Positions 2,060 to 51,626 of a DNA stretch of 64,000 bases are shown one piece after another. The DNA comes from Sphingopyxis fribergensis (lineage in GTDB: Bacteria; Pseudomonadota; Alphaproteobacteria; Sphingomonadales; Sphingomonadaceae). The notes under the pieces are model-generated. The model was not told where the DNA came from. It searched no databases and worked only from the letters and a program-made list of their open reading frames with translations. The translations under genes and the position numbers were made by a program. Within the stretch, counting starts at the first letter, position 1. Every line of letters begins with the position of its first letter. The stretch is taken from contig NZ_CP009122.1 in NCBI RefSeq assembly GCF_000803645.1, positions 4,874,501 to 4,938,500 on the forward strand, read 5' to 3'.

Positions 2060-2069
2060 CCGCTCGCGA

Positions 2070-5006
2070 TCATCGCCCGTGGCAGATTTTGTATTTCTTG
2101 CCAGAACCGCAGGGACATTTTTCGTTGCGGCCGACCTTTTTCCTCGGCTCAACCTCCCTGGGGGCACCGCGACGCTGATCGAACAGCGCCTGCAAAGGGG
2201 CAGGAATCACAACCTGTCGCTGCGGGGGACCGCCTTTGCGCCGAACCTCGCGAATGATGGCCTTCTGCTCCTGGAATGCCGCGCGATGGTTCGGATCCAT
2301 CGCATCCTCGAACGGCAGCAGCCGCTCGACCTCGTTCGCCGCCGCATCATGGTCGCCGCAGTACGCAAGAACCACCGCATATAGAGCGCGAGCTTCGAGA
2401 ACGGGCCCCGCGAGGCCCGCGCCTTGCAAGATGGGGAAGATGTTCCGTTCGAAGGCCTCGCGGGCGCTTATGAAGTCGTTCACCCAGACCAGTTCTTCGA
2501 CAAGATCGAGACCAACCCGGACGAATGACTGGTAGGATTGCGACAGTTCGTAGAATTTCATCGCATGGATGCGTGCGAGAGTAGATCGCTGGCTCTTCCG
2601 GCCCAAGGCCTGCGCGAAAAGATCGTGACTGTCTGCCAGATGTTTCAGCCGATCGGTGAGATCTTCGTCTTTGGGAAGAAGCTCCCGAAGTTCGGGGGCG
2701 TTCCGTCCTATCACATCGTCGGGCCTGATCCCGAGCTCCCGATAATATTCGCCGATGAGGGCGAGTGCCTCACTTACCGCTGTATCGTTGTCGCCGAGCT
2801 TGAAGAGGGCGAGGGCGCGATTGTAGCGAAACACGCGCAGATGTTCGGGCTGGTCGGGAAGTCGATCCGAAACTTCGTCAAGCATGGCCCGGACGCCATC
2901 AATGTCGCCAAGCTCGGACAAGAGCAACATCCGCTTCATGCCCCAGGCCATCCACTCCTCGTCGCCGAGCTCGTTCGCCCTCAGCAGCGATTCCATCTCG
3001 TCGACCCGCTCCCGGCCGGCCTCATAATCTCCCTCGCGCAGATCATTGAAGACCAGGCCGTCGAGCGCCCACAGCCTTGTCTCGGCATCTCCGTTCGGAT
3101 CGGCCGCGATCGTCAGCAGATAGGGTTCGATTTCCGGCCAGACCCCGAGTTCGTGGAACAATTCGTCTGTGGCAAACTGCACCAATATTCTCGCCTGACC
3201 GAGAAGCCCGAACAGACGGATGAGCAGTCCTAACTTCGCGAGGCTCCAGTTGGTCCGGATCGAGCTTACGATGACCCGCTGCAGCGAGCCCAAGGCTTTC
3301 TGCTCGAAGTCCTGACCCTTTGCCGAGACGTCCGCTTTGCCGAGTATCCTCACCGCGTCGTGAATTTTTAGGCCGCTATTCCCGAATAATTCCAGCGCAC
3401 CCGTTGCGGGAAGCGCGCGCAACCGGGCCGTGGCCGCCTTCGCGTCGATGTCGCATGCGGCTTGAAGCAAGGCACTGGCTTCGTCCCGTGAGAGCGCGAC
3501 ATCGGCGAGGCTCAGGACCGCGATCGTTTCTCTGTCGACCGGCGGCAAGCCTTCGAACGCGCGCCTCAGGATAATCTCTTGAGCCGTCTCGACGATATTG
3601 GTCTGCTGCTCGATATCCGTACAAAAGGCCCTAATGTCGCCGCCATATTCGCGCGCCGCGATCGTCGCCGCATTGAGTACATAAAATGGCAGGCCTCCGG
3701 TAATTCTGGATAGCCGCTCGCAATCGCCGAAATCGGCACGGCAACCAGCATCTTGAACTGCCGCCGCGATAGTGTCTTCGTCCCAGCCGTTCAGAGTCTC
3801 GGCTTGAATATCTAGTCCTGCTTCGAGTTCGGCGATGTGCCGACCCGGTTGGCTCAGCAGGACAAATCGGAGATTGGGGCCCCGTGCTACCAGCGCCTCT
3901 ATATCGGCCGCGGGAATGCGGTGGCTGTTATCGATGACGACAGCCGCGTGAAGGCCGTCTTCGCCGAGCTTGATGCTCAGCGCGCTCACCATGTCCAATC
4001 CGCTCGCGCCCGGCAGAAGAATTTCGCCGAGCTTGTCGTTGGAGCGACCGAACATCTTCGCCGCCACTTCGCGCGCTACCGCTGACGCGAGCGCGGGTCC
4101 CGGCGTGTCCCCAACGTCGAGATAGGTGACCGGGAGCGCAGCATGGACCGCGGCCTCGGCCATCCAGGCGGTTTTCCCCGAGCCCGAAAGTCCCGCTATG
4201 ATGCGGACGGGCTGGTCACTTAGCAGGGCGGGTTCGTCGACCTGGGCGCGGTACACCGGGGGCGGCGCCGGAAGCTGCTGCATCTGGACCACGAGCTGCT
4301 CGAACAGGTCCGGCAATTCCTCGCGGGAAAAACTGTGATCCTCGCGCGGAGGCGTGCCAGCGGATGCGAGCATGACCATGGCGGCCAGCTTCCAGGTCAG
4401 CGTCTCCGGCCTGAGCAACCCGAATGGCAGCTGCGCCGCGAGATCCGAGCAATATGCAGCCATACCGGCAACATTGTCGGCAGGTCGAGGCAGGCAATTG
4501 TCGGAGGGCTCAGGACCGCCTGGCCAATGCAGCTCGACATCGTCAGGCCAGTCATCCGCGGCAATCTTCTTGAGCAGGGCTGGCGACGGAGGCGCATTCG
4601 TCGCGATCACGAATCTCGCGTCGCCAGCTCGCAGGCCGTTCTGATGATCCGCACGTATGTCCTCGAAACGCTCTAGTGCTCCTGAAATATCACTGGGATT
4701 GAGGACGTCCTGCCGCGTTTTGACCTGCGCATAGATACGGGCGTCCGGAAGCTGGACTTCAATGTCCTCGTCCCGCTCGACGATGATATGTTCGGCTCCC
4801 GCCTTTCCCGCGAGGAGAAGGCACGCTGCCGCGAAAAGATGCTGGTAGAGGAAACCCCTGTGTACGGCCTCGATCCGGATGAGTTGGCGCTCGTCGAGAA
4901 CGAGGAGTTCGTCGACCGGCGGCTGTGGGCGTTCTGCCTCATCCTCCGCGCGGTGATCGGCCGCATTATGACCGGAATTGTCTCCGGGATCTTCTGACGC
5001 GGTCAT
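2070..5006 (-). CDS. Nuclease-like/P-loop NTPase/TPR-like protein with C-terminal SEC-C zinc motif
   Basis: A 978-aa multidomain protein. Residues 45-135 look like a PD-(D/E)xK nuclease: an acidic run near 79-83 (EDIEVQ) and the QVK triad element at 94-96. A P-loop follows at 271-279 (AGLSGSGKT) with a probable Walker B at 355-359 (VVIDN). The middle and C-terminal half is helical, with repeat-like segments resembling TPRs. The last about 22 residues form an SEC-C motif (CPCGSGKKYKICH). This architecture matches STAND-type (nSTAND3-like) defence NTPases. The start at 5006 is chosen because ATG and the upstream gene's TGA overlap (ATGA); an 18-residue longer form is possible. It is the last gene of a three-gene operon. 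No experimental family name is assigned. Confidence 0.75.
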   Translation of the reverse strand: MTASEDPGDNSGHNAADHRAEDEAERPQPPVDELLVLDERQLIRIEAVHRGFLYQHLFAAACLLLAGKAGAEHIIVERDEDIEVQLPDARIYAQVKTRQDVLNPSDISGALERFEDIRADHQNGLRAGDARFVIATNAPPSPALLKKIAADDWPDDVELHWPGGPEPSDNCLPRPADNVAGMAAYCSDLAAQLPFGLLRPETLTWKLAAMVMLASAGTPPREDHSFSREELPDLFEQLVVQMQQLPAPPPVYRAQVDEPALLSDQPVRIIAGLSGSGKTAWMAEAAVHAALPVTYLDVGDTPGPALASAVAREVAAKMFGRSNDKLGEILLPGASGLDMVSALSIKLGEDGLHAAVVIDNSHRIPAADIEALVARGPNLRFVLLSQPGRHIAELEAGLDIQAETLNGWDEDTIAAAVQDAGCRADFGDCERLSRITGGLPFYVLNAATIAAREYGGDIRAFCTDIEQQTNIVETAQEIILRRAFEGLPPVDRETIAVLSLADVALSRDEASALLQAACDIDAKAATARLRALPATGALELFGNSGLKIHDAVRILGKADVSAKGQDFEQKALGSLQRVIVSSIRTNWSLAKLGLLIRLFGLLGQARILVQFATDELFHELGVWPEIEPYLLTIAADPNGDAETRLWALDGLVFNDLREGDYEAGRERVDEMESLLRANELGDEEWMAWGMKRMLLLSELGDIDGVRAMLDEVSDRLPDQPEHLRVFRYNRALALFKLGDNDTAVSEALALIGEYYRELGIRPDDVIGRNAPELRELLPKDEDLTDRLKHLADSHDLFAQALGRKSQRSTLARIHAMKFYELSQSYQSFVRVGLDLVEELVWVNDFISAREAFERNIFPILQGAGLAGPVLEARALYAVVLAYCGDHDAAANEVERLLPFEDAMDPNHRAAFQEQKAIIREVRRKGGPPQRQVVIPAPLQALFDQRRGAPREVEPRKKVGRNEKCPCGSGKKYKICHGR

Positions 5007-5788
5007 CGTGTCGTGAAGGCTGCGACGACCTTGTTCGTCCCGTCCATGAGCAGGCCGCACTGAATGTCGGCGACCAGGACCGTCGAATTCACCGTGATAT
5101 CGGTCGGATTGCTGATCGTCGTCTTGCCATAGGGGTAGGTGGCGCGAACGACATTCGGGAGCTTCGGCACGACAACAAAGGCAATCTTGGCTTGGGGTTT
5201 GAAGGCTTGCGCTTCGGCGACGCTCATGGGGATGGTCCCGATGACCCCACCCTTGTTGGCGATGAAAAGCTCTTCGCCATAGCGCGCCGGTTCACCCTCG
5301 AAGATCGCGTTCTCGGTCCGGGTAATCTTGCTGATGGTGGCCTTCGCCCCGAAGCCATTCTGCGCGGAATAGGTGCCGGTCGTGACCTCGCTGCTCGAAA
5401 TCGTCACGTCGAGGTTGCTGAGGGTGCTGGCCTTCGGACTTTCGACTTTTGCATAATAGAAGGTGTCCCAAGCGCTGAAGTTCGTATTGTCGAACAGGTA
5501 GGACTTCACCTCGAAGGCTCCGAGATCGGCATTATAGGCCAGATATTCCGCGCCTTCGATCTTCTTCGAGATGATGAGGGGGCCGGAGCCGCCCGCTGCT
5601 GCGAGCCGGGCGCGGTATGCATCGCTGGTCTCGAATTCGTCCTTCGGCGCGACGGGCTTGATGGACGCGATAGCCTGGTCGAAGGTCTGGGGCTGCACCA
5701 TGGTGCCCGTATAGGCTGCACAGCCCGATTGCGCCTGCGCCAGTCCCGGCGCGCAGATCAGCGCCGCAGCCAGAATGATTTTCCTCAT
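5003..5788 (-). CDS. Secreted/periplasmic protein of unknown function
   Basis: A 261-aa protein with a clear Sec signal peptide: MRKIILAAALI, a hydrophobic core, and an AQA-Q cleavage region near residue 20. Two cysteines remain in the mature part (near the N-terminus and near the C-terminus) and may form a disulfide. The mature region is rich in beta-prone segments; no enzyme motif is recognised. It lies 39 nt downstream of the TrlF-like gene, and its stop codon overlaps the start of the nuclease-NTPase gene, so it is embedded in that operon. An exported protein between two cytoplasmic ATPases is unusual for a defence operon. It may be an unrelated passenger. Confidence 0.7.
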   Translation of the reverse strand: MRKIILAAALICAPGLAQAQSGCAAYTGTMVQPQTFDQAIASIKPVAPKDEFETSDAYRARLAAAGGSGPLIISKKIEGAEYLAYNADLGAFEVKSYLFDNTNFSAWDTFYYAKVESPKASTLSNLDVTISSSEVTTGTYSAQNGFGAKATISKITRTENAIFEGEPARYGEELFIANKGGVIGTIPMSVAEAQAFKPQAKIAFVVVPKLPNVVRATYPYGKTTISNPTDITVNSTVLVADIQCGLLMDGTNKVVAAFTTR

Positions 5789-5827
5789 TGGTTTTGCTCC
5801 CCCTTGAGCCCGTGCAAAATATCGAGA

Positions 5828-8791
5828 CTAACGCTCCAGGCGAACGCGCAGGCGCCGTGCGCGCTCGCGAAACGCATGTTCCCCGCCCTCGAGAATGTCG
5901 CAGACCATCTTGCGGATCGGTGCATCTTCGAGGCCGCCGCTCGCATAGGCGATCTCGGGCAAGCCATCCCCCGGATGCGGGCCGGCCGATGCAACGATGA
6001 CCTGATCGGCGTCGGTGTTGATCACCAGATTGGCGTTATGCGTGACGATGATGACCTGGCGCTTCGCCTTGGCCTTGAGGAACAGGCCGACGAGTTCATC
6101 ATAGATCGACTTGGGATCGAGATTTTCCTCGGGCTGATCGATGATCAGCGGCCGCTCATCTGCGTTGTCGAGCGCGAGGTACAGCAGCAGGAGTACGATG
6201 CCGCGCGTGCCCGGCGAAAGTTTGCGGATGTCGACCCCATCATAATCGACGCTGTACCGGACTTCGATATGATCGGTGCCATAGAGCCAGCGCGCGAACA
6301 GCTTGAGCCAGCCGCGGAATGCGGCGGCATCGCTGCGCTGTGCGAGAGCATGTTCGAAGAAGCTCTTCTGATATTTTTGGCGAAAGTCTTTGAGCGCCTC
6401 GGTCACTTCTTCGGCGGTCCCACTCTCCCAAACGCCGCGAAGCTCGTCATTCGCGGCCTCGAGCAATTTGCCCTCGCCGCGGAACGGGCCCTGTCGGCGA
6501 AGGTCCAGCAGATCCTCGCCGCGCTTTGCCCACTCCGCCATGTCTGCTCGGCGGGTGACGGTGAATGCAAGCTTCCCGAGCGTCCCGCCCGTCTCGTCCA
6601 TTCGCGCCCGGATGGGTGCGTAAAGGTCGTTGAGGACCTGCTGTTCCGAAAACACCGCTTCGAAGATCCGCCGGTAGCTTGACTGCCTTTCCGTAGGCAG
6701 GCCCTTGGCGCGCTCCTCTGCGCCCTCATAGTCCTTCAGCTTGTCCTGCAGGACCGAGAGCAATTCGGTCTCGGTCGTGATTTTCGTCGACAGGGAATTG
6801 AACCGTTCGCGTGTTTCCTTGTCGACGTTTATGATATCGCCGAGCCGCCGGATTTCCGCATCGAGCCGGCCAAGGGGAAGTCTCGTCAGATCGGCATCGT
6901 CGGCGATGAGCGGGGTCGCTGGATCGGTGATTGCGATATCGATCCCGCGCCACCCGTCACGGTTCTTCCGGGTGGAGGACAGGTTGTCGTTGATGATGCC
7001 GTCCACATTGCCGCTGTACTGCGTCAGAAACGGGTCCCACGCCTCTCCGGCTATGCCGGCATCCTTGTGGCGCTCTTGCGCATCGCGCAGATTTTCGGGC
7101 GCCTGATGGGTCCGGAAGTCCGAAACCTCGTCCTGGACGAGTAGCAACTTCTGCTCGCGATTGGTCAGGCGCCTAACCCGTGCGCGCACTTCGTTTGCCG
7201 CCTCGGTCAGGGCCTCGAGGCGCTTGATCCGGTCCTCGCTGCCTTTGCGGACAAGCTTGCCGCGGTCCTCGGTGAGCTGGGTGATCTTGAGCTTCTTCTC
7301 GTCGACCTGCTTCCGAATGGCCACGATCTGAGATTGCTTCTCGAGCTCGATGTTGATCCGGTCGGACAATTCCTCGAGCTTCTGTTCTTCGCGGCGTCGC
7401 GCCTCGCGGAACCGGGCTGCCTTGAGGTCGCGAAGGTCCGCAAAATCGACCGCGCCCTCTCGCTCGGTCGGGCTGTGGGCGTCAAAGACCACGCGCTCGA
7501 CTTCCGACAGCAGGCCATCGGTCATTCCCTCCGGTGAGCAGAGCGATTCCACGAACTGCTGTGTCAGGTATCGAGCGCGGGCGTAGCCGTCCCATGCCGC
7601 CGCGGCATTATCGAGGCCGCGTTCGGTGACAACGCCATTGCCCCAATCGAGCTTCACCGTCGCATCGTCGAGATATTCGCTCGCCCGAACCAGGAAAGAC
7701 TGCATAGGGAGCTGGTCGGCATGGGCATCGCAGCCCGCTGCGATCATGTCGGCCAGCGCGGTCTTGCCGGACCCGCGCGCACCAATGATCGCGACGAGGC
7801 CCGGGTTGAGATCGATCACCGAATTGGGGGCCCACGGCGCATTCGTCAGGGTCACACGGTGGATCGTCTCAGACGGCGCAGCTGCGGGCGGCGCCTCGGT
7901 CCCGACGTAAGCGCGGCCCTCGGGATCGATGCAGGCCTGCTTCAGTCCGTCGAATGTCGCCGCACCTTTGATCCAGGTATAGCGGTCGCCATCGGGCGCG
8001 CCCGTTCGTTCCACAGAATGCCCGTCGCTGCCGTGCATGCAGGGCTTGAGCCCGCCGTAGGTCTCGCAGATATGCTCGCGACTGGTTTTTCGGCCGAGCC
8101 AAAATTCACGTTGCGCCGGGCTCGACGCGAACATGATGTGAGCAAAATGTTCAATCTGCTGGCGCAAAGCTTGGTCTGCGCCATCTTGAAGTCCCGATGT
8201 CCCATCGCCCTTCGCGCCGGCGACCGCGATCAGGATATTCTCCTGCGCCCAGCTCATCCCCTTATATTCTTCACGGAGCTGATCGAAGCTTACCTTGAAT
8301 TGTTCGGAGCCGTGGCGAAGCGCTGAACGATCATCGGTCAGCTCGGAATTGAGCGAACGTCCCAGGCGGATCAGCTCCGAAGGATTACAGGCGAAGGTGT
8401 CGGTCGTGGTCTTGAAGGTCAGGCGCTGAAGGAAGCGCGTGAGCTGCTCGATATGATCGGGATCGTCGGGGCAGACGAGCAGATGGGCGTTGATCCACGA
8501 CCGCGCGGTTCCCACGCTGAACCGAAGCTCGATATTCGGAAAGATCAGGTCGCAGTCCTTGAGGCGACCTTGCTCCTTGCGCGCGCGAACCTCCTTGTAG
8601 AGTTCAAGCCCGTAATAGTCGGTAATACCGAGCGCACGGATCGCCGGCGTCGCACCCTCGATCGCGGCAAGATAGGCTTCCCAATCGCCCTTGAACTGGT
8701 CGTTGAAGATCGTGCCCGGGGCGTGGACGTGCGGATCCCATCGCAGCCACAACGATCCCGGTCCGATCGATTCCTCTTCCCCCACGGTCAT
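5828..8791 (-). CDS. TrlF-like protein: PHP phosphoesterase domain fused to SMC/ABC ATPase
   Basis: A 987-aa protein. The N-terminus (WDPHVH, His21 and His23) and later His/Asp residues such as MHGSDGHS fit a PHP metal-dependent phosphoesterase domain. A Walker A (IIGARGSGKTA) follows at about residue 335. Long charged coiled-coil segments lie roughly between 450 and 620. The C-terminal ATPase half has the ABC signature LSPGTRG, Walker B PLIIDQPEENLD and H-loop VTHNAN. This is the layout of TrlF-family AAA/ABC-like ATPases and related anti-phage or nucleic-acid repair SMC proteins. ATG 8791 is preferred to the TTG at 8812. It is the first gene of the operon; the substrate is unknown. Confidence 0.8.
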   Translation of the reverse strand: MTVGEEESIGPGSLWLRWDPHVHAPGTIFNDQFKGDWEAYLAAIEGATPAIRALGITDYYGLELYKEVRARKEQGRLKDCDLIFPNIELRFSVGTARSWINAHLLVCPDDPDHIEQLTRFLQRLTFKTTTDTFACNPSELIRLGRSLNSELTDDRSALRHGSEQFKVSFDQLREEYKGMSWAQENILIAVAGAKGDGTSGLQDGADQALRQQIEHFAHIMFASSPAQREFWLGRKTSREHICETYGGLKPCMHGSDGHSVERTGAPDGDRYTWIKGAATFDGLKQACIDPEGRAYVGTEAPPAAAPSETIHRVTLTNAPWAPNSVIDLNPGLVAIIGARGSGKTALADMIAAGCDAHADQLPMQSFLVRASEYLDDATVKLDWGNGVVTERGLDNAAAAWDGYARARYLTQQFVESLCSPEGMTDGLLSEVERVVFDAHSPTEREGAVDFADLRDLKAARFREARRREEQKLEELSDRINIELEKQSQIVAIRKQVDEKKLKITQLTEDRGKLVRKGSEDRIKRLEALTEAANEVRARVRRLTNREQKLLLVQDEVSDFRTHQAPENLRDAQERHKDAGIAGEAWDPFLTQYSGNVDGIINDNLSSTRKNRDGWRGIDIAITDPATPLIADDADLTRLPLGRLDAEIRRLGDIINVDKETRERFNSLSTKITTETELLSVLQDKLKDYEGAEERAKGLPTERQSSYRRIFEAVFSEQQVLNDLYAPIRARMDETGGTLGKLAFTVTRRADMAEWAKRGEDLLDLRRQGPFRGEGKLLEAANDELRGVWESGTAEEVTEALKDFRQKYQKSFFEHALAQRSDAAAFRGWLKLFARWLYGTDHIEVRYSVDYDGVDIRKLSPGTRGIVLLLLYLALDNADERPLIIDQPEENLDPKSIYDELVGLFLKAKAKRQVIIVTHNANLVINTDADQVIVASAGPHPGDGLPEIAYASGGLEDAPIRKMVCDILEGGEHAFRERARRLRVRLER

Positions 8792-8963
8792 GGCGCGGCA
8801 CGCTATCGTCAACAGGGGGGAAACGGAAGTGCCGCCGCCAGATCAAACCATTTTGGATCTATTTTGTGCCGGGGCCTGCGGCCTGATCGCAGGGCGGCTC
8901 GGGCTCGCCGGAACCGCAGGACTTGCCGGCCGTTTCCCAGTGGCAACGTCCATAGGAGCTGTC

Positions 8964-9092
8964 ATGGCAAGCGCACCGCCCGACCCGCATCCCGATTCTC
9001 CCCCGACCGGCCCCGAGCAAGTTCCGGAGCAGGTTCCCCTTCCTGATGACGACGGTCGGGAAAGTGTCGAGGACGTGCCTGACGCAGAATGA
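8964..9092 (+). CDS. Small proline-rich acidic protein (42 aa)
   Basis: A short frame with a good ribosome site: AGGAG at 8954-8958, five bases before ATG 8964. The product is dominated by Pro, Asp and Glu (PDPHPDSPPTGPEQVPEQVP) and is expected to be disordered. Similar short proline-rich proteins are common in sphingomonads; no function is known to me. It is divergent from the TrlF-like gene and followed at 9157 by a stem-loop. It is too short for codon statistics to decide, so it may be non-coding. Confidence 0.4.
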   Translation: MASAPPDPHPDSPPTGPEQVPEQVPLPDDDGRESVEDVPDAE

Positions 9093-9156
9093 TCGTCGGG
9101 CCGCTTGGCTTCTCGCCTGCGGCATGGCGCCCGCATATCTGCGGAGCGGAAATGGT

Positions 9157-9186
9157 AAGCCCCGCTACATCGCTGCAGCGGGGCTT
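9157..9186. terminator. Stem-loop, likely transcription terminator
   Basis: A perfect 10-bp inverted repeat (AAGCCCCGCT / AGCGGGGCTT) around a 10-nt loop. There is no strong T-tract on the + side; the A at the left arm would give a short U run on the - side. It separates the small + gene from the leftward-reading lipoprotein gene. The rest of 9093-9302 has no gene that I can support. Confidence 0.55.
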
Positions 9187-9302
9187 CCCTAGATTGCATC
9201 CGAAGATGCGATCAAATTCTGCCATTCTTTCGTCTGGACAGGTAAGTGAAACGTGCCGGGCGCGCGATGGTTCCGTGGGCTACTTCGAGGCCCGGAATTT
9301 TT

Positions 9303-10208
9303 CTATCGCCGCAGCGTGACCGCGATCGGGCAGTGGTCCGAATAATGCTTCTCGCCGGGCGCATAGAGCGTTTCGCTGAACCCCGTCCGGTCGGCGGCGG
9401 CGCGCCGGTCGAGCACGATATGATCGATGAAACTGTCGTAACGCGGATCGCAGGCCGGCGGCTGGCCCGCGTCGGCGAGCATCAAATCGGCGTTGGCCGG
9501 ATCGCCATCGTCGATTTTAGTCCAGATCGCGTCGCCGGGAAGCGCGAGCCGCCGGTTCCAGTCGCCCAGCACCGCGAAGCGCTCGGGCCCGGCGGCGGCC
9601 GCGTCGATCCAGGCTTCGAGCGCCGGAATCTGGTCCTGGAATATGGGGCAGGCCTTCGCCTCGTTCCCGGAGAAGCAGCCTGACTTGAGGTGGATGCCGA
9701 GAAGGCGGATCGGTGTGCGGCCCTCGGGGCGGAGCGTGATGTCGACGCCCGAGCGAAGCTGTTCGTTGCCGCGCATCAGCGACGTCACATCGGCATGGCG
9801 ATCGAAGGCCATATCCTTGCGGATCGCAAAACCGACCGCTTGGCGGATCACCGTCTGCGACGGGAACTTGCCGCCGCAGGTGCCGCCCGGCGCGCCCTTC
9901 CGCGCTTCCATGATCACGACATATTTGGCGGGGTCGAAGACCCGCGCCGCGGCGGTCTCATTCTCGGCCTCCTGAAAGGCGATCACATCGGCGTCGAGGT
10001 CGTCGACGATGCGGCGCATCGCGGCATAATCGCTGTCATCCCTGGGGTTGCAGCCTTCGCCGTTCCTCGCGGCGAGAAATTCCAGGTTCCAGCTCGCAAG
10101 CTTGAGCGGTTTCGATGGAGCAGACGGGTTCGCGGGTGCGGAGGTCGCGGGCGAGCAGGCGGCAGCCAGCAGGAGCAGGGCGGATGCGATGAGGCGGTGG
10201 GGAAGCAT
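9303..10208 (-). CDS. Endonuclease/exonuclease/phosphatase (EEP) family lipoprotein
   Basis: A 301-aa protein with a lipoprotein signal (hydrophobic core then LLAAAC lipobox, Cys near residue 18), so it is probably anchored in the periplasm or outer membrane. EEP/DNase I-fold motifs are visible: LASWNLEF with Asn/Glu, FQEAEN, GDWNR and the C-terminal YSDHCPI (SDH). These bind a divalent metal and hydrolyse phosphodiesters or phosphomonoesters. Substrate could be DNA, phospholipid or nucleotide. Six or so cysteines in the mature protein suggest disulfides, consistent with export. It is transcribed alone and faces the terminator at 9157-9186. Confidence 0.8.
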   Translation of the reverse strand: MLPHRLIASALLLLAAACSPATSAPANPSAPSKPLKLASWNLEFLAARNGEGCNPRDDSDYAAMRRIVDDLDADVIAFQEAENETAAARVFDPAKYVVIMEARKGAPGGTCGGKFPSQTVIRQAVGFAIRKDMAFDRHADVTSLMRGNEQLRSGVDITLRPEGRTPIRLLGIHLKSGCFSGNEAKACPIFQDQIPALEAWIDAAAAGPERFAVLGDWNRRLALPGDAIWTKIDDGDPANADLMLADAGQPPACDPRYDSFIDHIVLDRRAAADRTGFSETLYAPGEKHYSDHCPIAVTLRR

Positions 10209-10348
10209 CCGCCGCTACTGCCGCACGCCGCCACCGAGTGCAACTCGCCGTGCCGCGCCTTGGCGCGGCGCAGATGGCGCCGATCCGTCCGCGGCGCTAT
10301 AGCGCCCGCCCGGCCGGGATCCTTCCGGCCGCTCAAGGAGATGATTTT

Positions 10349-10624
10349 ATGAACCACGCCGAACTGTCGGACAGCGTCGCAACCGCACTTGGTCTGAGCA
10401 AGGCCGATGCGAAGAAGGCTGTCGATGCCGTTTTCGCTGCGATCACCGACGCCGCCGCCAAGGGCGACGAAGTCTCGGTGAACGGCTTCGGCAAGTTCAA
10501 GGTCAAGGAATCGGCCGCGCGTGAAGGCCGCAATCCCTCGACTGGCGAAACCATCCAGATTGCGGCTTCGAAGAAGCTGACCTTCGGCGCCGCGAAGGCC
10601 GTCAAGGATCGTCTGAACGGCTGA
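10349..10624 (+). CDS. HU-family DNA-binding protein
   Basis: A 91-aa histone-like protein. The N-terminal helical dimerisation half (MNHAELSDSVATALGLSKAD) is followed by the arm region GFGKFKVKESAAREGRNPSTGE, the HU/IHF signature. A strong AAGGAG lies at 10335-10340, eight bases before the ATG. The longer upstream GTG frame from 10238 is rejected. A strong terminator follows at 10632. HU paralogues are common on large mobile elements and may act as nucleoid or recombination accessory factors; as a chromosomal HU it would be equally normal. Confidence 0.93.
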   Translation: MNHAELSDSVATALGLSKADAKKAVDAVFAAITDAAAKGDEVSVNGFGKFKVKESAAREGRNPSTGETIQIAASKKLTFGAAKAVKDRLNG

Positions 10625-10631
10625 GCCGGTA

Positions 10632-10658
10632 CGTCCCGCCGGCGTGCCCGGCGGGACG
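10632..10658 (+). terminator. Rho-independent-type stem-loop after HU gene
   Basis: An 11-bp perfect GC-rich stem (CGTCCCGCCGG / CCGGCGGGACG) with a 5-nt loop starts eight bases after the HU stop codon. No T-tract follows. The remaining 10659-10873 is GC-rich with small palindromes and no supported gene. Confidence 0.7.
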
Positions 10659-10873
10659 GCCGCGCGGCGGCATGTCGGGCGCGGCATCTGATGAGCGCGC
10701 TCTGGCCTCGCAGGCTCGGCCAGGGGTCGCACTTTTGTTTTGGCCGCGCGGCACACTCGGCTCGCTATCCTTGCGGGGCGGCGGCTAGGCACGGGAGCGC
10801 ATCGCACGCCGCCCCGCTGCGGGCTCGCCAAGAGTGCGGTTGTTCGGGCCCTGCGGGCCGGCGACATCATGAC

Positions 10874-11386
10874 CTAGAGCGGAAGTTCCGCCTGTTTGCG
10901 CAAAGGCTCAACGAACAGCGTGCGACGCGGCGGTTCCTCGAACAGCAGCTCGTTCGGCAGGCTGCCGTCGAGCCAATGGTTCGCGTCGCGCCGCTGGATG
11001 ATCACGCCGTGGCGCGACTGATAGGGAATGACATCGGCGCCCGCCGGGATGGTGAGGATGCGGTAGGACAGCGGCCAGTCGGCGAGTGGCGGGTCCCACA
11101 CTGCGGCGAGATAGAAGAAATTGCCGCTGTCGAGCGTCACCCGGTAGCGGTGATCGCCGGTTCCCATGCGAAACTCGGACGCCGGGATCAGGCAGCGGCG
11201 CGCCGGGAAGGCGCGGCCCTCGGCGCGCACGAAACGATAATTGATCCCGTCGCTAAACCGCGGGTCGGAACCCCAAACCGCTTTGACCATTTCGATCTCG
11301 GTCATATTGTCGGGATTGCGCCGGACGAGCGCTTGCACGCCTCCGCTCGGGGCGTCGGGATCGAAAGGGGTTGGCGCGATACCCAT
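10874..11386 (-). CDS. SRAP-family (YedK/HMCES-like) protein lacking the catalytic cysteine
   Basis: About 170 aa from ATG 11386. Family signs are AVWGSDPRF, the Glu-bearing RCLIPASEF, and the His-bearing PYQSRHGVI, which match the SRAP core (Glu and His of the active site). It has no Met-Cys N-terminus: neither ATG 11386 nor the upstream start at 11449 gives MC. SRAP enzymes use Cys2 to form a thiazolidine with abasic sites in single-stranded DNA, so this copy is probably inactive or has changed role. It is divergent from an intact SRAP gene across a LexA box. It could be a decayed paralogue whose N-terminus has been lost. Confidence 0.75.
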   Translation of the reverse strand: MGIAPTPFDPDAPSGGVQALVRRNPDNMTEIEMVKAVWGSDPRFSDGINYRFVRAEGRAFPARRCLIPASEFRMGTGDHRYRVTLDSGNFFYLAAVWDPPLADWPLSYRILTIPAGADVIPYQSRHGVIIQRRDANHWLDGSLPNELLFEEPPRRTLFVEPLRKQAELPL

Positions 11387-11391
11387 ATGTG

Positions 11392-11406
11392 GAACATAAT
11401 GGGAAC
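11392..11406. promoter_or_regulatory. LexA (SOS) box, GAAC-N7-GAAC
   Basis: GAAC at 11392-11395 and again at 11403-11406 are separated by seven bases, which reads GTTC-N7-GTTC on the minus strand. That is the alphaproteobacterial LexA operator. It lies between the divergent SRAP genes, six bases from the minus-strand ATG and 35 from the plus-strand ATG, so it can repress both. Confidence 0.8.
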
Positions 11407-11441
11407 GATGTTGAGTCGCAAGGGCGAGGGGGCCGACGCGC

Positions 11442-12059
11442 ATGTGCAATGATTATCGGCTCGAAATTGACATCGCGTCGATCGCCGAGGACTTCGACAA
11501 CCTCCAGATCAAGATCGACATGCCCGAGGGCGCACCGAACGTGCCGGCGCGCGAGGATGTCCGCATCACCGATACAGCGCCGATCGTGAAGAGCAGCGAC
11601 GGCGCCGCCGCCGGATCGCTCGTCAACCGGCGCTGGAGCTGGCCCGGACAGGGCGGCAAACCGGTCTATAATGTGCGCTCGGAGCGCCGCGATCTCGGCA
11701 TGCAGCGATGCCTCGTCCTCTGCGACGGTTTCTATGAGTTCACCGATCCCACCGACCCTGCGCAGAAGCGGCTCGACAAGTGGCTGTTCACGCTGAAGGA
11801 CCATCGCTGGTTCTGCATGGCCGGCGTCTGGCGCGACAGCCATGTCGGCGAAGCCTTCAGCCTCCTGACCATGGACGCAGGTCCCGACATCGCACCCTAT
11901 CACCATCGCCAGATCATTCCGCTGCCACGCGATCAATGGGCCGCTTGGCTCGATCCGCGCGTTCCGGCCGAGGACATATTGAAATGGCTTCCCGAAGGCA
12001 GCCTCGAGGTGACGCAGGTATATGGTAAGCCGCCTGCACAAGGCGCTCTTGCCTTATGA
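11442..12059 (+). CDS. SOS response-associated peptidase (SRAP, YedK/HMCES family)
   Basis: A 205-aa protein with the exposed catalytic Cys2 (MCNDYR). Further conserved positions are Asn77 (YNVRSE), Glu99 (GFYEF) and His154/155 (PYHHRQ). These build the site that covalently crosslinks to and shields abasic sites in single-stranded DNA. The LexA box at 11392-11406 fits damage-induced expression. Its stop overlaps the start of a DUF1810 gene (ATGA). The longest open frame matches the MC start exactly, so the start is secure. Confidence 0.92.
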   Translation: MCNDYRLEIDIASIAEDFDNLQIKIDMPEGAPNVPAREDVRITDTAPIVKSSDGAAAGSLVNRRWSWPGQGGKPVYNVRSERRDLGMQRCLVLCDGFYEFTDPTDPAQKRLDKWLFTLKDHRWFCMAGVWRDSHVGEAFSLLTMDAGPDIAPYHHRQIIPLPRDQWAAWLDPRVPAEDILKWLPEGSLEVTQVYGKPPAQGALAL

Positions 12060-12493
12060 CGAACGAAGAGGGACTCGATCTGTTCGTGACCGCGCAAGAG
12101 CAAATCTACCCGCGCGCGCTCGGCGAGATTCGCCGCGGCAAGAAGTGCTCGCACTGGATGTGGTTCATATTCCCGCAGCTGGCAGGCCTTGGCCGAAGCG
12201 CGACGTCGAAGCTCTACGGTCTCGCGGGAGCCGATGAGGCGCGGGCCTATCTGGCCCATCCGCTTCTCGGCGCGCGCTATGCCGAATGCGTCGAAGCGAT
12301 CCAGGACCTGCCGGCAAGCGACCCGGTGGCGGTCTTCGGCGAGGTCGACGCCGTCAAGCTGCGTTCATCGCTGACATTGTTCGAGGCCGTGAGCCGGCGG
12401 CCGCTCTTCTCCGCCGCGCTCATCCGCTGGTTCGGCGGCGAGCGCGATGAGCGCACCCTCGGCCTGCTCAGCCGCGACGACAGCATGCCGTGA
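12056..12493 (+). CDS. DUF1810 family protein
   Basis: A 145-aa protein with the family's typical N-terminus (LDLFVTAQE), the KKCSHWMWFIFPQ block, GLGRS and the downstream FGEVDAVKLRSSLTLF region. The biochemical role of DUF1810 is not established. ATG 12056 overlaps the SRAP stop codon, implying coexpression with the SOS-controlled gene. It reads toward a convergent cytochrome b561 gene 12 bp away. Confidence 0.88.
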   Translation: MTNEEGLDLFVTAQEQIYPRALGEIRRGKKCSHWMWFIFPQLAGLGRSATSKLYGLAGADEARAYLAHPLLGARYAECVEAIQDLPASDPVAVFGEVDAVKLRSSLTLFEAVSRRPLFSAALIRWFGGERDERTLGLLSRDDSMP

Positions 12494-12505
12494 CGCCGAC
12501 GCGTG

Positions 12506-13063
12506 TCAGCCGCGCGGATTGCGAAACAGCGGCAGCATCCGGTGGAGCACTTCGTCCTTGTCGAAAAAATGATGCTTGAGCGCGCCGAGAACATGCAGCG
12601 CGAGCACGACGTAAATGGCCTTCACCATCAGCTTGTGTATGTCGCCGAGCTCTTCGGCGAGATCCTCGTTCAGCGGTAGCGGAAGATTGGGCGCGGGCAC
12701 GGCGCCGTAAAGCGGCACTTCAGGCGCCCCGCCCGCCGACGCTGCGGCCCAGCCGAGAAGCGGGGCGCCGATCATCAGCACATAGAAGAGGACATGGGTC
12801 GTGCGCGCGAGCATCCGTTCCCATGACGGCATGCCGCCGGGGAAGGCCGGCCAGGGATGGCCGAAGCGCCAACCGAGCCGGATAATGCTGAGCGCGAGGA
12901 TCGTGATCCCGACCGATTTGTGCAGATGATAATAGCCAAGTTTCTCGCTGTCCGAGGCGTCCTCCATCCAGCCGCCAAAGGTGGCATTGGCGATGATCAG
13001 GATGGCGATCGTCCAGTGCAGGACGATCGAGACGGTGGAATAGCGGCTGTGATTCTCACGCAT
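12506..13063 (-). CDS. Cytochrome b561-type membrane protein
   Basis: A 185-aa protein with four hydrophobic segments and histidines in the expected places (IVLHW near the start, HLHKSVG, RTTHVLF, and LALHVLGALKHH). These are likely ligands of two b-type haems. The family moves electrons between quinol and acceptors in the inner membrane; some members protect against superoxide. ATG 13063 is chosen because the product begins with the typical R-Y-S--S-VLHW start; the open frame runs far upstream only because of high GC. It is convergent with DUF1810 and divergent from imuA. Confidence 0.9.
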   Translation of the reverse strand: MRENHSRYSTVSIVLHWTIAILIIANATFGGWMEDASDSEKLGYYHLHKSVGITILALSIIRLGWRFGHPWPAFPGGMPSWERMLARTTHVLFYVLMIGAPLLGWAAASAGGAPEVPLYGAVPAPNLPLPLNEDLAEELGDIHKLMVKAIYVVLALHVLGALKHHFFDKDEVLHRMLPLFRNPRG

Positions 13064-13251
13064 GATTCGCCTCGCAATAGGTCCGTCACCGGTCTTCCAA
13101 TGCTTTGGCGGCGATCCTCGTTCCGTCAGCAGGACGCAGCCGTCACGATCATGAGCCCAATTTGTTTCGCTTTTACAGAGGCCGGGCGGAAGGCGCGCAC
13201 CGATTCCCGGCGGTTCGTCGCGGCCCGCTTGACGCGCCCTTTGACTCGGTG

Positions 13252-13266
13252 GAACATAAAGGGAAC
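13252..13266 (+). promoter_or_regulatory. LexA (SOS) box upstream of imuA
   Basis: GAAC at 13252-13255 and GAAC at 13263-13266 with a 7-nt spacer, matching the alphaproteobacterial LexA operator. It ends 19 bases before the imuA ATG. The spacer differs from the other GAAC-N7-GAAC site at 11392 by a single base (ATAAAGG against ATAATGG). Confidence 0.88.
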
Positions 13267-13285
13267 ATTTGAGTCGATATTTCCC

Positions 13286-14074
13286 ATGAGCACGACGCCC
13301 CAATCTGCACCTCGGCCAAGTGCCAGAGATATCGACGTGCTTCGCGCGGCGGTGGCGCGTGTAGCCGCCTCGCGCGGGCCGGTCTTGCCGTTCGGCGTCG
13401 GGCCGGTCGATCATCTTCTCGCTGGCGGCGGGCTCGATGGCGCAGGCCTGCACGAGGTCACGGGCGCCTCGGCAAGCTGGAGCGATGACGCTGCGGCAAC
13501 GCTCTTCGCGGCTGGAATCGCGTCGCGCTTCGCGGCGGCGCCCGACGTGTCGGCGCTCTGGGCGCTGACGCGGTTCGATCTCTATGCCCCCGGTCTCGAA
13601 CAGGCGGGGCTCGGTCCGGACCGCGTGCTCTATGCTCAAGGCAGGACCGACAAGGAACTGCTGGCGCTGTGCGAGGACGCGCTGCGCGACGGTTCGCTCG
13701 CCTGCGTCGTTGCCGAAGTGAAAGCGGCCGATCAGACCGCGACGCGCCGGCTGCAACTGGCAGCATCCGAGGGCAACACGCCGATGATCCTCTATCGCCG
13801 GTACCGGCGTTATGGCCAATGCCCGCTCGCCGATCCGTCGCTCGCAATGACCCGCTGGCGCATCGGCACCTTGTCGTCGGGCCGCCTCGCCTCGCCCGGC
13901 GTCGGGCGCGGGCGCTGGAATGTCGAGCTGGTCCGGCAGCGCGGCGGGCCGCCTTTTTCCCTCGAACTGGAGGCGTGCGATGACCAGGGTCGCCTCGCTC
14001 TTCCTGCCGCAACTGCCGATCGAGCGGTTGCGCCGGGCAGAACGGACACCGTCGCATTCGGGCACGCCGCCTGA
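13286..14074 (+). CDS. imuA: ImuA (SulA/RecA-like) mutasome component
   Basis: A 262-aa protein with the ImuA-type start region (LPFGVGPVDHLL-GGGL--AGLHEV), a RecA-like fold lacking a classic P-loop. It acts with ImuB and DnaE2 in SOS-induced, error-prone translesion synthesis. ATG 13286 lies just downstream of the LexA box; the upstream open frame is antisense to cytochrome b561. Its end overlaps imuB by 95 bases, more than usual, which may mean the C-terminus is extended relative to homologues. The gene begins a three-gene operon. Confidence 0.9.
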   Translation: MSTTPQSAPRPSARDIDVLRAAVARVAASRGPVLPFGVGPVDHLLAGGGLDGAGLHEVTGASASWSDDAAATLFAAGIASRFAAAPDVSALWALTRFDLYAPGLEQAGLGPDRVLYAQGRTDKELLALCEDALRDGSLACVVAEVKAADQTATRRLQLAASEGNTPMILYRRYRRYGQCPLADPSLAMTRWRIGTLSSGRLASPGVGRGRWNVELVRQRGGPPFSLELEACDDQGRLALPAATADRAVAPGRTDTVAFGHAA

Positions 14075-15781
14075 TCGGGCGCGGGCGGGTCCGCGCTTCC
14101 CCGAGCCTGTCGACGACAATCCCGGCACCTGTTCGGTGCCGCGCGGCGGCGGCTGGCGTCCGGGCGCGCGCTGGGCGCAAGGCACGCACTCCGGCGAGCC
14201 GTCGCTCGACGCCCTCCCGGCGCACCAGCGACCGACGATGCGCGAGCTCGGACGGCGGAGCGAAGCTGCCGCACCGGTGTTCCGGGCGTTGCGCTCGGAC
14301 GACGGGACGTCGGGCGGGATCGCTGCGCCGCTGCCGCCGCTCTGGGGCCTCCGTCCGACGATCGTCGTCGCGCGAACCGGCCAGCGCGACGTCGTGACCG
14401 CCGCCTGTCCGGCGGCGCTCGATCTCGGCCTCGTGCCCGGCATGGCGGCCGCCCATGCCCGCGCGCTGGTCTCCGATCTCGACATACTCGATGCCGCACC
14501 CGACGCCGATCGCGCGTGGCTCGATCGCCTTGCGCTCCACGCCGCCCGCTGCTGGACGCCGACGGCGGCAGTGTCGGGCATCGACGGGCTGTGGCTCGAC
14601 CTGTCGGGCACGACGCATCTCTTCGGCGGCGAAGAGCGTTTCGCGGCGCGTCTGCTCGGTTTTCTAAGGCGCCTCGGCTTCACCGCGCGTGTCGCGATCG
14701 CCGGCACGCCCGGCGCCGCTCACGCGCTCGCACGCGATGGCGGCGCGGGCGTGCGGATCTTGCCGGAAGGAGGCGAGAGCGAGGCGCTGGCGCCTTTGCC
14801 GCTGGCGGCGCTCCGGCTGGCGCCGGAGGCGCTCGCCGCGGCGGCGCGCTTCGGGATCGAGCGGATCGCCGATCTTTATCCGATGCCGCGCGGGCCATTG
14901 GCCCGGCGGCTCGGGCGCGGCGCGGTCGAGCGGCTCGACCAGGCGCGAGGGTTCGTACCCGAGCCGATCGTGCCCGTCGTCCCGTTCGACATGCCCGAGG
15001 CGCGCCGTTCCTTGCTCGAGCCGATCGGGACCGCCGAGGCGATCGAGCAGGTCATCGCCGACCTGCTCGGCGATCTCGTGCTCGCGCTGCGCGAGCGCAG
15101 TCTTGGCGTGCGGAGCCTCGTCTTGCGCTGCGACCGGCTCGACATGGGCGCGCAGTTCGTCACCGTCGGCACGGCGCGCGCGACGCGCGATGCGAAACAT
15201 CTGCTGCGCCTGTTCAGGCTCCGGATCGACCGGATCGAGCCGGGGCTCGGGATCGAGACGATGGTTCTCGCGGCGCCGCAGGTCGAAGCGCTGGCGCCCG
15301 AGGCGATCGCCGCCGTGCTCAACACGGCACGCCAGGCGCCCGACCTCGCTCCGCTCGTCGATGCGCTGGCCGGCCGCGCCGGCGATGCCGCGCTGTTCCG
15401 CCTGTCCGCGATCGAAAGCGATGTCCCCGAGCGCGCGATCGTGCGCGCCGGGCCTTTGGCCCAGCCTGCCGGCTGGCCCGTCTGGCCGCGGCCGATCCGG
15501 ATGCTCGCGCGGCCCGAGGCGCTGTCGGGCGTCGTCGCCTTGCTTCCCGACCATCCGCCGCGCCGCTTCGCGTGGCGCGGGCGGAGCTATGCGGTGGTCG
15601 CAGGCGATGGCCCCGAGCGCATCCATGGCGAATGGTGGCGCCGCCCGGGCGAGATGTGGGCGGTTCGCGACTATTTCCGGGTCGAGGCGACAAGCGGCGA
15701 GCGCTTCTGGCTCTTCCGCCGCGGCGACGCGATCACCGACAAGACGGGTGACCTCAGCTGGTACATGCACGGCGTGTTCGG

Positions 15782-15785
<4 letters not shown>
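13980..15785 (+). CDS. imuB: ImuB, Y-family polymerase-like mutasome subunit
   Basis: A 601-aa protein starting [19 protein letters not shown], the usual ImuB opening. It has Y-family palm, finger and thumb-like segments ([38 protein letters not shown]) and a C-terminal extension with a PPRRFAWRG block typical of ImuB. ImuB is catalytically inactive and bridges the beta clamp to DnaE2. Between residues about 22 and 115 there is a low-complexity Pro/Arg/Ala stretch also seen in many alphaproteobacterial homologues. The stop overlaps dnaE2 (ATGA). Confidence 0.92.
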
Positions 15786-18991
<3,206 letters not shown>

Positions 18992-46926: not shown

Positions 46927-49900
46927 ATGGACCAGCCCGACGATTCGGCCGATCAGCTTGCGGCAACACGCGCCATCCTTCCCTCGGAATTCATGCGCCA
47001 GCTGAGACCCGACGAGTTTTCCGATAGCGGGTCCGAGCCTGCCTTCATCCTCGAAGCCTATGAGCTGGAGCAGCGCCTCGAGTATGTCACGGCGCGCAAC
47101 GAGACCCATGATTTCGAGATTTTCTGTCGGAAGCTTTGCGAGCGGATCGTCTGCAAGAATCTGAAGCCTGCGACGGGCCCGGAGGGCGGCGGTGACAGCA
47201 AGGCCGACAGTGAGACCTTTGCGGTCTCCGACGAGATTACGACACTTCACTATGTCGGCGAGGCCAACTCTGGAAGCGAGCGCTGGGCGTTTGCTTTCAG
47301 CGCGAAGAAGCAGTGGCAGCAGAAGGCGCGATCGGACATCGAGGGGATCGCGGCGACTGGGCGTCCCTATACGAAGGTGTTCGTCGTCACCTCGCGTTAT
47401 GGCCGCTCCAAAGATGTCGCCAAGATTCAGGATGAGCTGTCAGAGAAATTCGGCTTTCGCGTCGAGATATTCGACCGAAGCTGGATCATCGACCGGGTTC
47501 TGACGCACGGAAATCAGGATATCGCTGTCGACTATCTCGGAGTCGGTAAGCGAAACGAGAAGGCGCGTGTCGGGCCAGCCGACTACGCGCGGTCGCAGCA
47601 ACTCGAAGATCTGGAGAAGGCAATCCAGGACCCTGCCGCTTATGCCGGCATCGAGGCGCAGCGCGTGACCGACGCCCTGCTCGCTGCGACGCTTTCGAAG
47701 GAGTTGGAGCGGCCGCCTTTCGAGACCCATGGGCGATTTGATCGGGCGATCCGCATCGCCGATCAACATGGTCTGCTCAGCCAGCAGATCGAAGCACGCT
47801 ATCAGCGGCTTTGGACGGCCTTCTACTGGTTCGACGAGTTTGACCTCCTGGACCGCGAGTTTGACGCGTTCGCTGAACTCGCGTTTGGCTCGCCCGCGGC
47901 GCGACACGCGGAACGCCTTGCAAACCTTCTGCAATGCCTGATTACGGCGGTCGCACAGGGCTATCGTTCAGCCGAACAGGTTCGCCTCTCGGAACGCCGG
48001 TCCGCGTTGGTCGCTCGCCTCGAATTTTTTGCGGGTCAGAAGGACCGTCCCAACAATGCGCTCGAAGCGCGCACGACCTCCCTAATGCTCGAGATCACCT
48101 CCCTTGCGTTCGATCGACGCGACGAAATCTCCCCCTTTTGGCAGGAAGCCGAAGCTATCCTCGAAGCGGCGTCGGGGCTCGCTGAATATGATGCCGAGCG
48201 GCTCGCGCAGCTGATCGAGGAGGTGGGGCCGCTTGCCGGGAACGATCCGGCCTATGGTGAACTGGTCGACAAGCTCGCAGACTTCATGGGCAAGCGGGTC
48301 GGCGAAGGCGAGAGTGGACGTATTTTGCTGCGAAGGGCGCGGCGGCTCGACACAAATGCGGACCGTCTTGAGATAATTCGTCTGCTCGGACGGGCCACGC
48401 ATCAACTCACCAAGCGCGAATATGCGGAAGAGCTCATCGAAGCGAGCTACATGCTCGCGGTCGCCTATCGGGGCACCGGTACGCTCTGGGCTGCGCGTGC
48501 CGCGGCGCTGTTTGCTGTCGCATCGATAATTGCAGATTCGGAGCACGATAGCCATCCATCGGTCACCCTCGTTCCCGCGTTGATGCTCCTCATCTGGATA
48601 GACATCGAGTTGCGGCTGCTGCCCGAGGCGCTCGACGCGATCCGGATGGTGAATGGTTGCCGAAAGTTGCTGCCGCTCGACGACGCTTCGAAGGTTCGCG
48701 TCGACGAGAGGTTGAAGGAATTTGATGGCGTCCTCACTTGCCAGTTTCTCAACAGCTCGGCCGATGACTTCGAGGCGATGGCGGGCCTCCCGACGGTTCT
48801 GGAACGCCTTGGTTTGCCTATGTCCTGCGGCGCGCTTCTCTACGCCTTGGGCTATGCGGAGCGCCTGGGTGAACGTCAGCCCGAGGAGGAGCCGGAAGGG
48901 GGACTTGAAGGCATGTTCGCGCGCGCGGCCAACCAGCCAGCGGGCGACCTCGGTGGTCGGCCGCTGGTTACCGGCAGCCCGCGACCGCACAGCATCGAGA
49001 CCCGCGTTATCGGCATGCGCGTCGCGGTGCATCTATCGGGCAGCGACACAGCGCTGCTCGCCGGCCAAACCCTGCTGGCGGTTATCGACACGCTGTTTGC
49101 TACGGTTATCGGCCTGCGGATCGGAGCATTCGTCGAGCGCTTTGATATCGATCTCGTGGAAAGCGATGTTGCCACAGCACCGAACGTTGATTTCGATGGC
49201 AATAACATGCGCGCCAAACTTCATTGGCCTGCCGGATCGACACCCGCCGATCATCTCGGTGAGAGCGGAACCCATAGCCAATTCCTGCTTCTCTCAACGC
49301 TGATGCTCGTCGCGACCTCACTCGCCGACCGGCAAAAAATATCTCTGGAGAAGCTTTTTCGGGAAGAATCACTCCTTGAGCGCGTCAGCGCCGCAGTCGC
49401 GAGTTCGAACAGCCGCATCCGGGCGATGAACAGTCCAGCGTCGCGACTGACGGATTGGAACGAGCTATCGCTCGAGCGGTTTCCGCCGAAGGCCGACCGG
49501 CCGGTAATTGTAAGGGTGCCAGAGGCTGATCCCGAAGAAGAAACAATCAGCGAGCGATACGCGACTGGCGATCACCGCAGCGTCGAAGTGCGCTCGATCT
49601 TGGACATTCCGCAATGGGAGCAGGCCCGCTGGATCGGCGTGATGCTCGGTCTGCAGCATGATCTCCCGATCGTCGGATTGCACTTTGAGGATCGCGAGGC
49701 GGGACGCCAAATTTTCGAGCGTTGGCGCGAACGGTTCGGCGCACGAGATGCCAAAGGGGCTATCCACATCGCGATCTTGCGCGAACTACCTGGTCGGCCC
49801 CCGTCCCACTATGCGGTGCTATTGATGGCGGGAACTGAGCCAGGGGATTTCGCTGGTACGCTGGTGAGCATGCCGAGCCGCCTCAAGCTGCTCGAACCTG

Positions 49901-51580: not shown

Positions 51581-51626
51581 CTTGCCAAGGTTGGGGTCGA
51601 GGGTTCGAATCCCTTCGCCCGCTCCA
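51581..51626 (+). other. 3' half of tRNA-Gly(GCC): attachment site attR
   Basis: From CTTGCCAAGG (anticodon loop with GCC) through GAGGGTTCGAATCCCTT (T arm) to CGCCCGCTCCA, the sequence equals the 3' end of tRNA-Gly(GCC). The upstream bases do not pair as an anticodon stem and no GCGGGCG 5' acceptor strand is present, so this is a fragment, not a gene. Such repeats arise at one end when an element inserts at a tRNA 3' end. The intact copy should be at the other end of the element. GTTTTT follows, and no gene lies in 51418-51580. Confidence 0.85.

Follow-up and report, generated by a model that had tools for sequence, protein, structure and literature searches.

Described systems related to the locus

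Nuclease-type Avs proteins are ordered nuclease, STAND, and TPR, and the NLR-like route of sensing, oligomerizing, and cutting is established STAND biology. The Cap4 nuclease of CBASS, which carries a SAVED domain behind the nuclease, and LmuA of Lamassu share a nuclease fold with a QxK motif. Ppl, a single-gene phage defence, combines a PHP nuclease with an ABC-type ATPase. It is described as a 3'-5' exonuclease that acts on single-stranded DNA, is unleashed by phage depletion of nucleotides, and detects 3'-OH ends left by phage homing endonucleases (PMC12904381). The TRL operon of Photorhabdus (trlR-trlF-trlG) restricts growth at high temperature, and the report on it places the selected mutations in trlG and none in trlF (PMC7554251). 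Effector pairs have also been described as recurrently acquired by unrelated immune systems (PMC12799240).

A locus of three genes, A, B, and C, was analyzed in a 64,000-nucleotide stretch of the Sphingopyxis fribergensis genome (NZ_CP009122.1, positions 4,874,501 to 4,938,500), hereafter the window. Among the matches listed in open-access PMC, no paper described the trio or a TrlF protein beside a STAND protein. The two large proteins were found to be of defence-associated types, as had been proposed from the DNA (the TrlF family for A, and Cap4–STAND–TPR for C), and an anti-phage function is inferred. The three genes are probably largely autonomous modules stacked at a defence hotspot, which lies on an island at tRNA-Gly; the modules are separable and likely co-transcribed.

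Organization of the locus and its island

Gene A (5828-8791, 987 aa), gene B (5003-5788, 261 aa), and gene C (2070-5006, 978 aa) are all encoded on the minus strand. Coordinates and junction bases bore out the predicted arrangement of three leftward genes, with a gap of 39 bp between A and B (5789-5827, minus strand) and an ATGA shared by the stop codon of B and the start codon of C (5003-5006, minus strand). The gap holds GGGGGAG, a ribosome-site-like sequence of B, and no terminator-like site was found within it. The short gap, the overlap, and the lack of such a site suggest a joint transcript. In comparisons with the A-B-C copies L035 and L037, dN/dS was 0.06-0.07 for A, 0.16-0.18 for B, and 0.13-0.17 for C, which indicates that all three genes are under purifying selection; because of these low values, the reading frames are not attributed to chance. 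The signal-peptide protein between A and C, whose presence there had been considered unexpected, is real.

The trio sits on a predicted island bounded by copies of the 3' end of a tRNA-Gly gene. An att-like repeat at 51601-51626 (plus strand) is such a copy, and a second copy lies 148.5 kb to its left. Across the genome, the intact tRNA-Gly is the leftmost of three copies, with the 3'-end copies 121 kb and 270 kb rightward, and the trio falls in the right-hand interval (148.5 kb) of this tandem. The region as a whole (G000:C1, 4656213-4926126) thereby contains two tandem intervals at tRNA-Gly, of approximately 121 and 148 kb. A tyrosine integrase is encoded at 50134-51417 (minus strand; Arm-DNA-bind_3 and Phage_integrase, over cut-off), and the conjugative-type genes in the window also include those for a T4SS coupling protein, T2SSE, a TraG-type ATPase, and TrbI. 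The reading of the predicted island as an integrative and conjugative element, made in the original prediction, is therefore supported by gene content and by the tRNA-Gly repeats.

The same island also encodes an impB/mucB/samB-type Y-family polymerase and a DnaE-type polymerase (13920-18991; Pfam). Adjoining the integrase is a gene for a 1068-aa protein without a Pfam match at E up to 1e-4 (46927-50133); the protein encoded beside it carries an N-terminal CoiA domain.

Gene A encodes a TrlF-family protein

The first gene had been described as a fusion of a PHP domain to an ABC ATPase, and the profile searches agreed. A matched the NCBIfam TrlF model NF045780 with 704.7 bits (cut-off 350) over profile positions 2-943 of 944, which places it in the TrlF family, and it also matched Pfam AAA_21 with 46 bits (cut-off 27). 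In the PHP region (residues ~12-260; 8012-8758, minus strand), H21, H23, D58, E88, H103, H253, D256, and H258, which we take to be the PHP motif residues, were invariant among 12 aligned subfamily members including A, and no Pfam PHP match was obtained for A itself. The Walker A region (GARGSGKTAL; 7709-7834, minus strand) coincided with an AAA_23 match at residues 324-358 of 20.7 bits, below the cut-off of 27, and its residues G337, G340, K343, and T344 were invariant in the same 12 members. The region of the ABC signature, Walker B, and H-loop (5987-6277, minus strand) was covered by the AAA_21 match at residues 849-923, over cut-off, and the motifs SPGTRG, DQPEENLD, and THN were likewise invariant in the 12.

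A resembles Ppl in joining a PHP nuclease to an ABC-type ATPase, but its score to the Ppl model NF042955 was 128.7 bits, far below the cut-off of 1000, and A is ruled out as Ppl and assigned to a different family. Only weak matches to Lamassu models were found (25.5 bits for C to LmuA, 32 bits for A to LmuB), and A is better explained as TrlF than as LmuB.

A is a full-length TrlF-family protein, as is TrlF of the Photorhabdus operon, but trlG and trlR are absent beside it. It is flanked by B and, beyond 8962, by genes that are conserved in the flank of the hotspot, and B had no Pfam match to the AlbA_2 and HATPase domains of TrlG. TrlF was found over cut-off in 12 of the 385 genomes of the class, the window's own included. 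When the 11 other class loci were opened, the gene directly behind TrlF carried SLFN_AlbA_2 and HATPase_c_4, the TrlG domains, in three (L114, L115, and L117), and no TrlG-domain gene was seen by eye in L109, L110, and L113, the nearer relatives of A. A non-phage role is conceivable because TrlF is named after a temperature-restriction operon, and the locus might accordingly be a stress or growth regulator. The growth restriction at high temperature speaks for this reading, but the mutations selected in that work lay in trlG, with none seen in trlF (PMC7554251), no trlG-like gene was seen by eye beside A, and C is of the nuclease/STAND type; we regard such a regulator as very unlikely.

A matched 1090 plasmid records at any level and 40 at 80% coverage, and nine of its subfamily were opened. 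Neither B nor C was found by tblastn at any of the 20 other TrlF loci (nine plasmid loci and 11 of the class survey). Several of the plasmid TrlF loci neighbored other defence-type genes, including AbiEi/AbiEii, VapBC, CBASS, and restriction genes.

Gene C encodes a Cap4–STAND–TPR–SEC-C protein

Four regions were distinguished in C. For the nuclease domain (residues ~40-190; 4437-4889, minus strand), the predicted PD-(D/E)xK-like character was upheld by fold and not by the Pfam score: Foldseek retrieved Cap4 chains at E 3.3e-4 to 9.6e-4, but the match to PF14130 was 21.0 bits, below the cut-off of 26.2. The residues E46, E77, D79, D81, E83, Q94, and K96 were invariant in 16 aligned C sequences, among them the Q94-x-K96 of the QVK that had been singled out at 94-96. 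The predicted P-loop at 271-279 was equally well conserved, with S274, G275, G277, K278, and T279 invariant in the 16 sequences. It belongs to a STAND-type NTPase region (residues ~260-550; 3357-4229, minus strand) that was assigned by P-loop and fold. The best fold match of C was the STAND–TPR protein 6mfv_A (E 1e-9, TM 0.23/0.33), followed by CED-4; AAA_22 gave 17.7 bits, below its cut-off of 27, and model confidence was low at residues 240-281. A TPR-like superhelix follows (residues ~576-925; 2232-3281, minus strand), and the protein ends in the anticipated SEC-C zinc-binding motif (residues 960-978; 2073-2129, minus strand; PF02810, 37.1 bits, cut-off 20.4).

The order of an N-terminal effector, a STAND NTPase, and a C-terminal repeat sensor is like that of AVAST; for C, the nuclease and STAND assignments rest on invariant residues and fold, with Pfam scores below cut-off. 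C differs from Avs by its SEC-C zinc tail and its length of 978 aa. The PADLOC 2023 library returned eight matches for C at E up to 1, none of them to a full-length model and none to an Avs model, and Avs chains were also missing among the best 50 matches listed in either fold search with C, which excludes nothing. C shares with Cap4 and LmuA the Cap4-like nuclease fold and the QxK motif, but instead of SAVED it carries STAND, the TPR superhelix, and SEC-C behind the nuclease. It had no SAVED match at E up to 1 and is ruled out as a CBASS Cap4. C was found in four of the 385 class genomes (E up to 1e-3), with the window's own genome counted; in two of the four, C is cut.

Gene B belongs to a phage-associated family

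B matched phrog_13753, a family without an assigned function, with 33.9 bits and E 4.6e-8 over profile positions 57-238 of 263, for which there is no curated cut-off. Its only cysteines outside the signal-peptide-like segment, C23 and C244, were invariant in six aligned sequences. The structure model of B, built from four sequences, had a mean pLDDT of 49.8. Its signal-like segment and its two conserved cysteines are the grounds on which an envelope role is proposed for B.

The family was sparsely distributed. B was found in three of 296 order genomes and one of 385 class genomes (own genome counted in both; E up to 1e-4 in the class), the phrog_13753 profile itself matched in three of 196 order genomes, and homologs occurred in two of 72,556 plasmid records. 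In L071, the B homolog adjoins a gene for the terminase large subunit (phrog_38, E 2.3e-99), and in the viral contig L179 it adjoins a terminase-domain gene; neither has A or C alongside. The viral contigs gave no match with B alone and one, L179, with the B alignment, and phage records searched with B and then with the L071 homolog gave no match. The plasmid homologs in L064 and L065, and the homolog in L072, had no A nearby and no C except for a SEC-C fragment match in L072. These occurrences point to B as a member of a family of phage and mobile-element cargo.

Module exchange at a Sphingopyxis hotspot

A species-genome collection was scanned with six peptide patterns of C, which yielded 28 loci; distant relatives of C would be missed because the scan used such patterns. 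The order A-B-C with full-length A and C was present at six loci (L031, L032, L033, L034, L035, and L037), and among the 28 it occurred only in near-identical copies of one Sphingopyxis hotspot. Additionally, the L036 contig ends within B, and L055 is a decayed copy. In L047 and L052 (L053 being a further fragment of the L052 assembly), the match to the window stopped at 5791, which is three bases ahead of the start codon of B, and resumed at 8960. The interval between 5791 and 8960 was occupied by a different protein, which is also a TrlF (491.6 bits), and by an MgtC-family protein (MgtC tested in L047). Of the other 17 loci, one is L054, and the remaining 16 have neither A nor B.

Both flanks were then searched in 70 genomes of the genus, and eight stretches were opened. 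L160 and L162, the latter taken as the contig of L047, showed the form TrlF-2–MgtC–B–C. L157 and L158 contained TrlF-2 alone, without B–C, and their homology to the window stopped at 2068, close to the stop codon of C (2070-2072). L159 held other cargo, including an AbiEii gene and a DUF6088 gene. In L161, window position 4469 was joined directly to 49107 with a 7-bp overlap, leaving C from residue 169. L163 was taken as the contig of the decayed copy L055, and L164 included left-flank pieces only. In the genome G808, both flanks were found at a spacing equal to that of the window.

This series delimits two separate modules, a TrlF cassette slot at 5792-8961, which holds either A or a different TrlF with MgtC (homology ending at 5791 and resuming at 8960-8962 in L047 and L160), and a B–C unit at 2069-5791, present or absent as a whole (homology ending at 2068 in L157 and L158 and at 5791 in L047 and L160). 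Among the opened hotspot copies, B–C was not found without TrlF except in L036, which ends in B, L161, which carries the deletion, and the decayed L163. The L161 junction (8098-15085), seen in one isolate, deprives C of most of its nuclease domain.

In strain H053, a single contig holds two copies of the region (L033 and L034), which are inverted relative to each other. Both copies carry an identical 11-bp frameshifting deletion in B, and A and C are full length. This frameshift and the absence of B from L054 rule out B as an obligate part.

The original prediction of one three-gene system was not sustained. The co-occurrence check across genomes, set beforehand as its refutation, found that the three genes rarely co-occur, and the gene neighborhoods rule out a single conserved trio, since the A-B-C order was confined to the one hotspot. 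We favor stacked modules because the slot of A was exchanged while B–C stayed (L047, L160), because TrlF occurred at the hotspot site without B–C (L157, L158), because 34 of 37 C loci lacked TrlF within the DNA opened and all 20 other TrlF loci opened lacked B and C, and because B homologs occurred without A or C and B was frameshifted in H053.

Neighbors of C and the TrlF–C association

Of the 37 C loci, two represent the hotspot forms and one is L054. The other 34 include 16 plasmid loci, opened from 54 plasmid records with a match. Near-copies and fragments (L031-L037, L052, L053, L055, L056, and the viral contig L070) were excluded. The DNA ahead of C is short on some contigs, at 842 bases in L041 and 2346 in L042, and L050, L058, L121, and L122 carry only part of C.

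A profile of B found it at the window only, and tblastn added L047. The restriction of B to these two of the 37 loci bears on the reading of B and C as a functional pair, in which translation of C is coupled to B and one two-layer module delivers both an envelope factor and an NLR-like nuclease of the cytoplasm. The two genes occur side by side in the A-B-C and TrlF-2–MgtC–B–C forms, are both missing from L157 and L158, share the ATGA overlap, and have similar dN/dS, but B homologs occurred without C, B was broken in H053 while C was full length, and the two proteins are expected in different compartments. Such a pair is distinctly improbable.

The 427 ORFs neighboring C were searched with a profile derived from 23 TrlF proteins. 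TrlF was near C at three loci (the window, L047, and L054) and was not found within 6 kb of C, or within the shorter contig, at the other 34, including all 16 plasmid loci; in L173, an ORF of 109 aa scored 17.9 bits and was disregarded. From these neighbor surveys, C therefore appears to occur mostly without TrlF and to land beside many partners. In L054, a Parvularcula MAG, the TrlF stop overlaps the C start by ATGA with no B between, and the eight C-terminal residues of this TrlF, RLRVRLER, are those of A (frame read by eye); at this locus, 1364 bases are masked, and the row for its C contains 85 X.

Three TrlF lineages stand upstream of two C lineages. Adjacency to TrlF required two changes on the C tree (22 rows), and two are forced by its starred branches; association with C, a trait of three proteins on the TrlF tree (23 rows), required three. 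Label shuffles needed as few changes in 42 of 500 cases on the C tree and in all 500 on the TrlF tree. The labels alone show no clustering because the shuffles did as well, and both trees are limited by long branches and small numbers. In G505, TrlF and C lie on different contigs, and in the Agrobacterium plasmid records CP039912 and AFSD01000008 both are present but far apart.

These data can be read as a two-component system in which TrlF, as a sensor or processor of phage nucleic acid, licenses C or protects against the toxicity of C, with B having been inserted between the two in Sphingopyxis. Adjacency that arose at least two times on the C tree with three TrlF lineages, the ATGA overlap in L054, and the scarcity of both families (TrlF in 12 and C in four of the 385 class genomes) would fit it. 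Weighing against it are the 34 C loci without TrlF and the 20 of 20 other TrlF loci without C, the separate placement in G505 and both plasmid records, the shuffles, and the fact that defence genes cluster anyway, and we hold this system to be unlikely. A more elaborate version is improbable: a layered cassette in which translation links an envelope exclusion protein of phage origin to an NLR-like Cap4 nuclease, and in which neither works without the interchangeable TrlF upstream, the slot serving as a sensor or licence for C that was chosen three times independently. Against purely stacked cargo, TrlF stands upstream of C three times, from three TrlF lineages and once with an ATGA overlap, which independent genes would not readily produce, and recurrent TrlF–C pairing is a possible leftover signal. 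The junctions that suggest a joint transcript and the rarity of B–C without TrlF among the opened hotspot copies count on the same side. In the study on effector pairs, modules likewise moved between otherwise unrelated immune loci, but the nuclease and protease of those pairs act through a coupled mechanism, whereas the association here is one of gene arrangement (PMC12799240).

Clustering of the neighbors of the 37 C loci revealed recurrent mobile-element, N6-methylase, and DUF3800 genes. N6-methylase genes lie beside distant C homologs in L043 (1999-5623), L120 (3297-6891), L171 (7734-9014), and L059 (6258-7886). Those of L043/L044 and L120 are type-IIG-like with a companion of 253-255 aa, and that of L059 is a different one. 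The pairing of a methylase with C may have as much support as that of TrlF with C. DUF3800 genes were directly downstream of C homologs in L046 (12820-13962), L168 (7347-8510), L169 (7342-8457), and L045 (12784-13812); the first three had a Pfam match, the L045 gene had none and is 74% like that of L046, and the L168 gene matched PADLOC PDC-S51. In the related loci L038 (8621-9721), L039 (2220-3320), and L040 (8618-9718), the gene immediately upstream of C is a DUF4238 gene, with a Pfam match in L038 and at least 92% likeness in the other two.

Proposed functions and implications

Under the preferred reading of stacked modules, A and C should each work alone. A would be a TrlF-type, ATP-gated PHP nuclease that, by analogy to Ppl, may attack phage nucleic acid once phage activity releases a nucleotide brake. 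C, by domain order from sequence and fold, would be an NLR-like single protein: its TPR/SEC-C tail might sense a phage product, the STAND NTPase would then oligomerize, and the Cap4-type nuclease would degrade DNA. This route is proposed for C because of its domain order and STAND biology. B is probably exported and disulfide-bonded, and its most likely site of action is the envelope, where it could serve in superinfection exclusion, for instance; it is carried along with C, and the phage linkage of its family was observed.

The hotspot presents a natural series at one site, from A-B-C and other-TrlF–MgtC–B–C to TrlF alone and other cargo. With near-identical flanks, a comparison of these arrangements can test whether TrlF cooperates with an NLR-like nuclease. 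The Cap4–STAND–TPR–SEC-C family is marked as a plasmid and island gene that occurs mostly without TrlF, and an operon-like trio can be the product of recent stacking.
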